Positions 60,005 through 62,598 of a DNA stretch of 64,000 nucleotides are shown piece by piece. The notes below the pieces were generated by a model that saw nothing but the letters and a program-made list of their open reading frames with translations, searched no databases and was not told the DNA's origin. The stretch lies in NCBI GenBank assembly GCA_937922045.1, contig CAKZXA010000032.1, forward strand, positions 133,710-197,709, given 5' to 3'. The stretch's first letter is position 1; every line of letters begins with the position of its first letter. The translations under genes and the position numbers were made by a program. The stretch is from an uncultured Acidimicrobiales bacterium. Lineage in GTDB: Bacteria > Actinomycetota > Acidimicrobiia > Acidimicrobiales > SZUA-35.

Positions 60005-61618
60005 TCAGGCGACTTCGACGTCGATCGTGTGCCAGCCAGTGGCGCCGTCGGGCGCTGGCGAGGCGAGATCGGGTGTCTGGCTGTAGCCGGATTCGTCGGT
60101 AGCTCGCACTCGCAGCGTGTGGTTGCCCGGTTCGGCATCCCAGGCGTAGAGCCACTGAACCCAGGCGTCGGCCCCGAGGCTTTCACCTAGCTGGGCTTGC
60201 TGCCACTCGCCATCATCGATCTGGACCTCGACCTTGGCGATACCGGTGTTGGGCGCCCAGGCGACGCCGGCGATAGCTGTCGTTCCCTGGCCAACACGAG
60301 ACCGATTGGATGGCGTGTCGATGCGGGATTGGGTCTTGACCGGCCCTACCTTCGACCAGCCGCGAGGGATCCAGTAGCCGTCGAAGTCTTCCCAGGTCGT
60401 GAGCTCGATCGTCTCGATCCATTTTGTGGCCGACACGTAGCCGTAGAGGCCACTGACAACGAGACGGGCTGGGAAGCCGTGAGCTACCGGGAGAGGCTCG
60501 TCGTTCATAGCCACCGCTAGCAGGGCGGTTCGCCCGTCATAGGCGGCTTCAGTGGGAAAGCCGCAGGTCCAACCGTCGACCGAGCTGCTGGCGATCTGGG
60601 TTGCTCCGGGTTGGACGCCAGCCTCATCGAGCAGCTCGCTCAGAGGGACCCCTCGCCAGATTGCGTTGCCTACGAGCTGGCCGCCTACCTCATTTGAAAC
60701 GCAGCTCAGGGTCACGGGGGCCACCGTCGACGCTCGATCGAGAAGCTCTTGGTAGGTGTAGGTGACCTCTTGATCGACCATTCCCTTGATCGTAAGCGTC
60801 CATGTGTCGGGGTTTACCTGAGGCTTGATGAGGGCGGTATCGATCAGGTAGAAGTCATCGCCGGGAACCACAAGCGGACTGATGCCAGGGGTTGAACCGA
60901 CATCGCTGGCCGTGGCGGCGTCGAGTACCTGGTCGAAAGCGGTGGAGGAGTCGACCGGCTCGAGCTGGACCGCATCGCGAGCGATGTCGACCGATGATCG
61001 TGATCGGATTGCCTGAGCGGCAGCACCAGCCGAGGCCGCGCCAAGTCCCGCCACACCAGCCCAGCCGAGAAAGCTGCGTCGAGAGACGTGGGGATTGGTC
61101 GGCGTGCCAAAGGGCGGTGTCTTGGCCGGCGTCGATCTTGGCCGGGCTCGATTCAGGAGGAAACTCAGCGTGAGCATGCCGCTAGCGGCGGCGATAGCAC
61201 TGCTGATGATGGCCCACAGCAATGAGCCCTGCGGGTCACTCGCTATAGCTAACAATCCCAGAATGGCGAAGCCGGCGAAGCCCAACAGGGCTGGGACAAC
61301 GCTCCGGCGAGCCACCACGCCCAGGGCCATAGCAAGGGCAACCGAGATGCAAATCGTTCCAATGATTAGGGCTGGCTTGTCGGCTAGGCCAAAGAGTGAC
61401 TTGCCGAGTTCGACAAACCAGCCAGGTGCGAGATCGATTACTCGGTTGGCGACGGCGACGACCGGACCCGGCGAAGGAGCGCCGAAGGCTCCAACAAATT
61501 CCCCGGACGCCAGCGCTAGGCCAGCTGCGAGCGCGCCAGCCAGGGCGGCGATCCATGTGCGAATGCCCTCGGTTTTGTCAATCGTCTTATCCAACGAGGC
61601 GCCTAGCTGTTCTCCCAT
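60005..61618 (-). CDS. Membrane-anchored sulfite-oxidase-like molybdopterin enzyme, Tat-exported
   Basis: The protein of 537 residues starts with about five membrane helices (residues 20-165), followed by a twin-arginine signal (SRRSFLGWAG), so the C-terminal part is moved outside by Tat. That part has DDFYLIDTALIKPQVNPDTW, the Mo-ligating Cys in LSCVSNEVGG, RGVPLSELLDEAGVQPG and HGFPARLVV, then an immunoglobulin-like dimer domain with WAPNTGIAKVEVQID. It is a sulfite-oxidase/YedY-related oxidoreductase. The electron acceptor is unknown. The moeA-moaA-moaC genes could supply its cofactor. It is divergent from the redoxin gene. Confidence 0.85.
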   Translation of the reverse strand: MGEQLGASLDKTIDKTEGIRTWIAALAGALAAGLALASGEFVGAFGAPSPGPVVAVANRVIDLAPGWFVELGKSLFGLADKPALIIGTICISVALAMALGVVARRSVVPALLGFAGFAILGLLAIASDPQGSLLWAIISSAIAAASGMLTLSFLLNRARPRSTPAKTPPFGTPTNPHVSRRSFLGWAGVAGLGAASAGAAAQAIRSRSSVDIARDAVQLEPVDSSTAFDQVLDAATASDVGSTPGISPLVVPGDDFYLIDTALIKPQVNPDTWTLTIKGMVDQEVTYTYQELLDRASTVAPVTLSCVSNEVGGQLVGNAIWRGVPLSELLDEAGVQPGATQIASSSVDGWTCGFPTEAAYDGRTALLAVAMNDEPLPVAHGFPARLVVSGLYGYVSATKWIETIELTTWEDFDGYWIPRGWSKVGPVKTQSRIDTPSNRSRVGQGTTAIAGVAWAPNTGIAKVEVQIDDGEWQQAQLGESLGADAWVQWLYAWDAEPGNHTLRVRATDESGYSQTPDLASPAPDGATGWHTIDVEVA

Positions 61619-61776
61619 ACACTCAGCGAACCATAGAAATGAGGGTGACATTCCAATCGGGTGTTCAAACCGAAGAAGGTTTCGCGAACGTTTCGGATCC
61701 GTTTATGGTGCATTTCGACCCGGCAGGGGATGCTAGAGATGCCGTCTACGTCGGCCCTCGAACCTTTGGAGCGCGT

Positions 61777-62598
61777 ATGCCTCATGAAGCCACACAGCGA
61801 CTACCCAGAAAGCGATCACAGAGCGGCAGCTCGCTCTGGTCGCTGGCGGTAGCAACCGGCCTCGCCTTGGTCTTGGCCGCCTGCGGCGGCACGACCACCG
61901 ACGAAAGCGCTGATGAATCGACCGCGGCCTCGGTGTCGGCTGCGACGGATGAATCGGCGGTCACCCCTGCCGATGAAACCCCGACGGCATCGAGTGACAC
62001 CACCGTCGCCGACGCAGCTTCGACCGCCCCAACAACGGCTCTGACCGCAACGTCGTCGGACTCCACGACGTCGTCGACAGCAGAAACCTCCGACTCTTCA
62101 GCGACTACCGCATCGTCGGAGAGCACGGCGTCATCGGAGGCGACGACCACACCGTCGACCGAGGCACCAACCACCACCAGTACCGAGACAGCGGTCAATC
62201 TGTTCCCCGATGTCGATGTGGTAAGCATCGTCGATGGTTCGAATGTCAATCTCGCCTCGAGACTCGGCGGAGGGCAAACTCCTGTCCTGCTCTGGTTCTT
62301 CGCCCCGCATTGACCTACCTGCAACGCCGAAGCACCGGCGGTTGAGCAGTTTGCTCAACAGAACACAGGCAAAGTGCGAGTTGTTGGCATGGGCGCTCAG
62401 GACAGCTTGGACCTGGCGAAGTCCTTCGTCCAACGCAACGGGACCGATACTCCGACGATGGTGTGGGATGCGTCCTTCGATTCGTGGAGCCACTACGGCG
62501 TTTCCGGCCAACCGTTCGTGATTCTTGTCGATGCCGAAGGCAACGAGTTGGGTCGCTGGTCGGGCCTCTCATCGGAGATCAGCGAACTGATCGGCTAA
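61777..62598 (+). CDS. Thioredoxin-like lipoprotein with in-frame TGA, probable selenoprotein (UxxC)
   Basis: A lipoprotein signal ending in LVLAAC (Cys36) follows ATG 61777, which has GGAG 5 nt upstream. A Ser/Thr/Ala/Glu linker runs to about residue 145. A thioredoxin-like domain follows: PVLLWFFAPH, then TGA at 62311-62313 (codon 179), then PTCNAEAPAVEQF. After this the frame stays open for 95 codons, with VRVVGMGAQDSLDL, the cis-Pro motif SGQPFVILVDAEG and a final LGRWSGL, and ends at TAA 62598. The TGA replaces the first Cys of the redox motif while the second (Cys182) is intact. The base after TGA is C, a weak stop context. Selenocysteine is the best reading; a nonsense mutation is the alternative. 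It may act as an extracytoplasmic reductase. Confidence 0.82.
62325..62359 (+). promoter_or_regulatory. Candidate bacterial SECIS: two adjacent hairpins after the TGA codon
   Basis: Hairpin 1: CGCCG (62325-62329) and CGGCG (62336-62340), loop AAGCAC, starting 11 nt after the TGA, the same distance as in E. coli fdhF. Hairpin 2: GTTGAGCA (62341-62348) and TGCTCAAC (62352-62359), loop GTT with G first, 35 nt after the TGA. Bacterial SECIS loops carry a G near the loop start, which favours hairpin 2, while spacing favours hairpin 1. Both lie in the coding region, as in bacteria. Confidence 0.55.

Follow-up and report, generated by a model that had tools for sequence, protein, structure and literature searches.

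To our knowledge, the bacterial SECIS (bSECIS) is described as one stem-loop, and the prediction programs score one. The eukaryotic Sec redefinition element (SRE, e.g. that of SEPN1) is a stem-loop close to the UGA that enhances read-through even when the main SECIS is absent; in the SRE and the hymenopteran HRE alike, a stem-loop near the UGA supports recoding and specificity lies in another element. The SRE has been proposed to descend from a bSECIS that was demoted to a helper (Mariotti et al. 2015, PMC4561486). In the published bSECIS consensus model, the apical loop has 3–9 nt, the stem has 4–16 bp, and the MFE is −7.5 kcal/mol or lower (PMC13188914, Fig. 2 legend), with a G within the first two loop positions and 16–37 nt between the UGA and the apical loop (PMC13188914).

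Here, we describe a thioredoxin-like gene in a 64-kb window (the whole stretch of DNA analysed) whose in-frame TGA is followed by two abutting hairpins (Table 1). Judged by comparison of genomes and without any experiment, this tandem pair looks like a selected element and an apparently undescribed variant of the bacterial SECIS signal. Hairpin 2 resembles bSECIS of the Escherichia coli fdhF type in stem, loop, distance, energy, and site within the ORF; the locus departs from the one-stem-loop model by a second, separately conserved hairpin that lies between the UGA and the SECIS hairpin and abuts the latter. It departs from the SRE and HRE systems in that both elements are bacterial, contiguous, and within ~50 nt of the UGA, and enhancer activity has not been measured. 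Searches of open-licence literature brought up no account of a tandem or double SECIS in bacteria, which does not prove that none has been published. A tandem conserved in two unrelated actinomycetotal genes would explain long UGA-to-loop distances, its architecture would improve selenoprotein gene finding in Actinomycetota, and it offers a natural system for asking what role the nucleotides between UGA and SECIS play on the ribosome.

Table 1. Features of the tandem-hairpin locus, with positions in the window.
Feature	Position	Strand	Remark
Selenoprotein gene	61777..62598	+	start ATG inferred
In-frame TGA, read as selenocysteine (first position of UxxC)	62311..62313	+	
11-nt spacer, TGA to hairpin 1	62314..62324	+	includes resolving Cys codon TGC, 62320-62322
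Hairpin 1, 5-bp stem CGCCG/CGGCG, loop AAGCAC	62325..62340	+	11 nt after TGA
Hairpin 2, GTTGAGCA-GTT-TGCTCAAC, 7-8 bp stem, loop (A)GUU(U)	62341..62359	+	

The hairpin pair and the bSECIS model

The first-pass annotation had placed two perfect hairpins directly after the TGA, the first 11 nt past it and the second beginning at the very next base, with a G-first apical loop 35 nt past the TGA. The sequence bears this out exactly, the spacer having the length claimed and the loop G lying at 62349, and a ViennaRNA fold of 62311–62370 consists of exactly both hairpins plus a weak closing helix, at −23 kcal/mol (z −3.02; equal stability in 2/200 shuffles). The window’s + strand has no other back-to-back pair of perfect hairpins of such size (first stem at least 5 bp, second at least 7 bp, gap at most 1 nt). 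In ten order-1 Markov sequences of the same length, three such pairs occurred in total, and the pair by itself is a mild surprise; what makes it significant is that it comes right behind a Sec-TGA and is conserved in relatives. Rfam at gathering thresholds matched nothing in the window but a tRNA; none of its SECIS families was hit.

Hairpin 2 satisfies the bSECIS model in full, and hairpin 1 satisfies it in all points except the loop G. The former has a loop of 3 (or 5) nt, read as GUU or AGUUU, a stem of 8 (or 7) bp, an energy of −9.3 kcal/mol, and a loop 34–35 nt from the UGA. The latter has a loop of 6 nt, a stem of 5 bp, an energy of −7.6 kcal/mol, and a loop 16 nt from the UGA, but no G in the first two loop positions. 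The remaining criteria are satisfied as well: the element follows an in-frame Sec-UGA directly and inside the ORF, in an organism with tRNA-Sec, SelA, SelB, and SelD. The suggestion that the pair forms an unusual double SECIS is supported, with the refinement that only hairpin 2 fits the model as a SECIS.

Proposed roles of the two hairpins

Among 90 thioredoxin-like (Trx) loci, 88 were grouped into 56 of type A (TGA and the hairpin-2 loop), 13 of type B (TGA and a different single hairpin, GGUC, ~26 nt from the UGA), and 19 with Cys; left out were L091 (codon ACT) and L085, whose alignment did not span the codon and which was later read as a single-hairpin gene. The MFE fold of the 60-nt stretch contains both hairpins in 47/56 type A genes (the other nine lack this fold), compared with 0/13 of type B and 0/19 with Cys. 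Addition of named relatives brought type A to 113 distinct sequences.

Pairing holds in 97.0% of the hairpin-2 cells, and four of the six pairs of hairpin 2 change on both sides. Double changes fill 35 cells, against 10.3 in shuffles (0/500 as high), and the signal is lost when the partner is shifted by sliding. Its loop reads AGUU[U/C/G/A] in 111/113 type A sequences, with GGUUC and AGGCU found once each. Hairpin 1 has no conserved loop, and its register slides among relatives (i+j mostly 40, 41, 43, 44, or 45), for which reason its natural halves were exchanged between relatives in a half-swap test. Native halves paired better in 102/113 type A sequences (−11.0 vs −7.7 kcal/mol), the controls giving 7/19 for Cys and 5/13 for type B. 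Within register classes, hairpin 1 also has more double changes than shuffles, but these classes were picked by best stem, so the percentage paired is circular there. The first-pass annotation had named two observations that would refute it, i.e. a lack of compensatory changes in relatives and the presence of the same hairpins in Cys homologues, and neither was made. Selection on both hairpins in type A genes is shown computationally. Having neither the loop G nor a fixed register, hairpin 1 looks like a helper helix and not like a second SelB site.

Several SECIS forms coexist in the window’s own genome. Its fdhA (L319) has a single hairpin with a GGUCU loop that starts 12 nt after the UGA, a spacing like that of E. 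coli fdhF, and a single close hairpin was found in 13/13 correctly framed fdhA genes (these 13 of 20 loci were used, and synonymous-codon z-scores were not). L319 itself (C36:5689–7563) is a Sec formate dehydrogenase-like gene (SCNRT-U-HAPSVVGL) that scores just below the TIGR01591 cut-off. A covariance model of the tandem (R1) matched three thioredoxin-like genes of this genome (on contigs C32, C12, and C50, the last with a first hairpin of only 4 bp) and gave two weak matches, one of which is the C4 thioredoxin-like gene, of type B, with its single GGUC hairpin. A model of hairpin 2 alone (R2) returned, besides the same three genes, nine weak matches with E values from 0.38 to 9.8; inspection of the middles of these nine loci revealed no obvious Sec gene, and they were treated as chance. 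As R2 missed selD, it is not a full census of the genome. In the selD gene of this genome (C14), the loop of hairpin 2 is GUU, and the first hairpin is weaker and farther off.

The conservation of the hairpin-2 loop and a count of effective spacing lead us to propose that hairpin 2 is recognized and that hairpin 1 compacts the interval and perhaps stacks. Not counting hairpin 1, the median distance from UGA to hairpin 2 is 11 nt in Trx genes and 8 nt in selD, vs 28 and 25 nt otherwise; for E. coli, a review gives 11 nt to the upper stem-loop (PMC8659212). The reading that we hold to be probable, though far from settled, is that hairpin 2 is the SelB-bound SECIS and hairpin 1 a SECIS-derived helper helix by which hairpin 2 comes near the canonical distance. 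The (R)GUU(N) loop of hairpin 2 hardly varies, and this hairpin would be the bacterial SECIS expected to bind SelB; hairpin 1 would occupy the ordinary position of a single SECIS without any longer carrying a G[GU] loop. By folding 16–19 nt away, hairpin 1 would bring hairpin 2, 25–28 nt off by sequence, to an effective ~8–11 nt from the UGA, near the 11–12 nt of E. coli fdhF and the fdhA of this genome, and, where the mRNA enters the ribosome, hairpin 2 would probably be stacked on hairpin 1. SelB binding, stacking, and the spacer role are inferences; what the computations show is the presence of the Sec machinery, selection acting on the two hairpins, a loop conserved in hairpin 2 alone, the return of the tandem in selD, and the spacing arithmetic. 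The arithmetic would, however, fit any hairpin of the same size at that place.

The main rival also has hairpin 2 bound by SelB but lets hairpin 1 act on the ribosome, by SRE-like slowing or by disfavouring the release factor at the UGA, instead of as a spacer. We consider it unlikely, yet it cannot be set aside lightly: hairpin 1 mostly starts 7–11 nt after the UGA, selection acts on its stem while loop and register are free, as would be the case for a roadblock that acts by stability only, and SRE-type helpers have been proposed to derive from bSECIS (Mariotti et al. 2015, PMC4561486). Position and stem-only conservation are consistent with an SRE, the activity being unmeasured. Hairpin 1 is, however, missing from genes whose SECIS hairpin lies near the UGA (fdhA, 13/13 examined; type B, 0/13 have it) and found in those whose SECIS hairpin lies far from it, which is unlike the prediction for a general read-through enhancer.

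Tests for selection in Sec and Cys homologues and in selD

Stability was assessed against a null in which amino acids were fixed and synonymous codons redrawn. For the hairpin-1 region, mean z is −1.98 in type A (27/56 at p ≤ 0.05), +0.88 in type B (0/13), and +0.20 in Cys genes (1/19); for the hairpin-2 region, the values are −3.05 (50/56), +0.22 (0/13), and −0.18 (0/19). The contrast for hairpin 2 is partly one of construction, type A having been defined by its loop; hairpin 1 was not used in the selection. Clustering leaves the hairpin-1 signal in place, with negative z in 54/55 clusters at 85% identity and 17/17 at 75% (mean over the 17, −2.15). The best hairpin-1 stem falls short of 5 bp in 16/113 Trx sequences by one stem finder and in 14 by another. 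A type A subgroup, the GICVREAP paralogues (L065–L067 and L072, with L066 being the C50 gene of the window’s own genome), combines a strong hairpin 2 with a hairpin 1 of only 4 bp that is set back by ~5 nt, and these paralogues provide a natural test of the importance of hairpin 1.

The tandem recurs in selD, a gene unrelated to the thioredoxin-like one. In L201, for instance, AGCTCGCC-CCG-GGCGAGCT is followed directly by GGCGCAG-GTC-CTGCGCC. In 34 selD-TGA genes of relatives, mean z is −1.52 for hairpin 1 (12 at p ≤ 0.05) and −3.32 for hairpin 2 (33), compared with −0.22 and −0.15 in ten Cys selD genes. The half-swap test does not discriminate here, since native hairpin-1 halves paired better in 30/34 TGA genes but also in 8/10 Cys controls. 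The relatives and a phylum-wide draw together gave 89 distinct actinomycetotal selD-TGA sequences. Hairpin 2 is present in 59, of which 54 also have a hairpin 1 of at least 5 bp, and absent from the other 30, in which the hairpin-2 region has a mean z of +0.13. Hairpin-1 z is negative in all tandem selD genes, both those of relatives (33/33) and those of the phylum-wide draw (26/26), and in fixed register the double changes in both hairpins exceed all 500 shuffles.

These results bear on the reading that hairpin 2 alone is a normal, long-spaced bSECIS and hairpin 1 a by-product of GC-rich coding sequence. It draws support from the fact that hairpin 2 alone satisfies all published bSECIS constraints and that some hairpin of at least 4 bp stands at the hairpin-1 place in 7/19 Cys homologues. 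The synonymous-codon null, the half-swap and cluster tests, and the recurrence in selD count against it, and on these comparisons the reading seems improbable and largely refuted. Less credible still is a switch, in which an alternative fold would pair the hairpin-1 region with hairpin 2 and so regulate Sec insertion: the MFE fold joins both regions in some relatives (L024, L027, L052, and L053), but these alternative pairings do not look shared, and the two separate hairpins of most type A folds rule out a switch or one long hairpin as the main fold.

As for the SECIS with a helper helix that we prefer, the selD genes also suggest where such a helper may have come from. They fall into a single-hairpin class and a tandem class (e.g. 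L250–L318), and the single hairpin sits at the hairpin-1 position. G[GU] occurs in the first two loop positions of 24/27 single hairpins vs 8/51 tandem hairpin 1s (and in 59/59 tandem hairpin 2s, where it is true by group definition); the corresponding Trx type A counts are 17/99 for hairpin 1 vs 109/113 for hairpin 2. If any G is counted, selD gives 16/54 tandem hairpin 1s vs 24/25 single hairpins (Fisher p 1.4e-8, a value that overstates independence because the groups follow lineages). It may be, although we would stop short of calling it probable, that the actinomycetotal SECIS was split: the ancestral hairpin would have lost its SelB-recognition loop and been kept as a helper, either structural or for read-through, and recognition would have moved to a second hairpin added immediately behind it. 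Two or more unrelated kinds of gene, selD and the thioredoxin-like genes, would have undergone this change. Were this true, bacteria would themselves show the helper-plus-recognition arrangement from which, as proposed, the eukaryotic SRE arose. The selD series, with its related single and tandem forms, makes the demotion of a SECIS to a helper directly testable.

The gene and its recoded TGA

In read-through translation, the gene begins with a lipoprotein signal with lipobox (..LVLAAC), and a TGA read as Sec joins this leader and the Ser/Thr-rich linker that follows it to a thioredoxin/redoxin domain (FFAPH-U-PTC). Pfam Redoxin (PF08534) matches at 41.2 bits (cut-off 26.6) and Sec takes the first Cys position of the domain, which meets the UxxC criterion for Redoxin/thioredoxin-like proteins. 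The gene is below the curated cut-off of NCBIfam NF041057 (Rcas_1661 thioredoxin-like (seleno)lipoprotein; 19.5 bits vs 190) and below that of TIGR00385. As a Redoxin-fold UxxC protein, its product resembles the UxxC thioredoxin-like/Redoxin selenoproteins. The protein itself is not the novel part; UxxC in Redoxin PF08534 is already listed in a 2026 selenoprotein inventory (PMC13188914). The upstream divergent gene (60005–61651, − strand) resembles a membrane-anchored sulfite-oxidase-type molybdopterin protein, judged from its translation only.

From its conservation, the TGA appears to encode selenocysteine. Exactly one in-frame TGA is present in each of the 38 best-scoring matches (61 genomes), and the codon is TGA in 97/97 matches of the search that covered named relatives, with the protein conserved downstream; the search patterns behind the latter set favour the Trx subfamily of the window gene, and a few of its rows are loci of the window’s own genome. 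The named relatives with the gene are mostly Acidimicrobiia MAGs but include the cultured Ilumatobacter nonamiensis YM16-303, in which two such genes (L134 and L182) were found. The genome, of Acidimicrobiia type, encodes tRNA-Sec with the anticodon UCA, SelA and SelB in neighbouring genes (a single SelB exceeded the family cut-off), and SelD, whose gene has one in-frame TGA of its own. The tRNA-Sec gene lies at the extreme end of a contig (C89:2–93). A single base separates TGA from a Cys codon, but the notion of a pseudogene, with the TGA either a true stop or the product of a sequencing error, is ruled out for practical purposes by the conservation of the TGA and of the downstream protein, with the Sec machinery present.

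Ten further thioredoxin-like genes (L075, L083, L086, and L339–L345) have Sec in place of both active-site Cys residues (UxxU), reading FWAPW-U-P[FHV]-U, or LWAPW in one of them. They have one GGUC hairpin, ~26 nt after the first UGA and 17 nt after the second, which would have to serve both.
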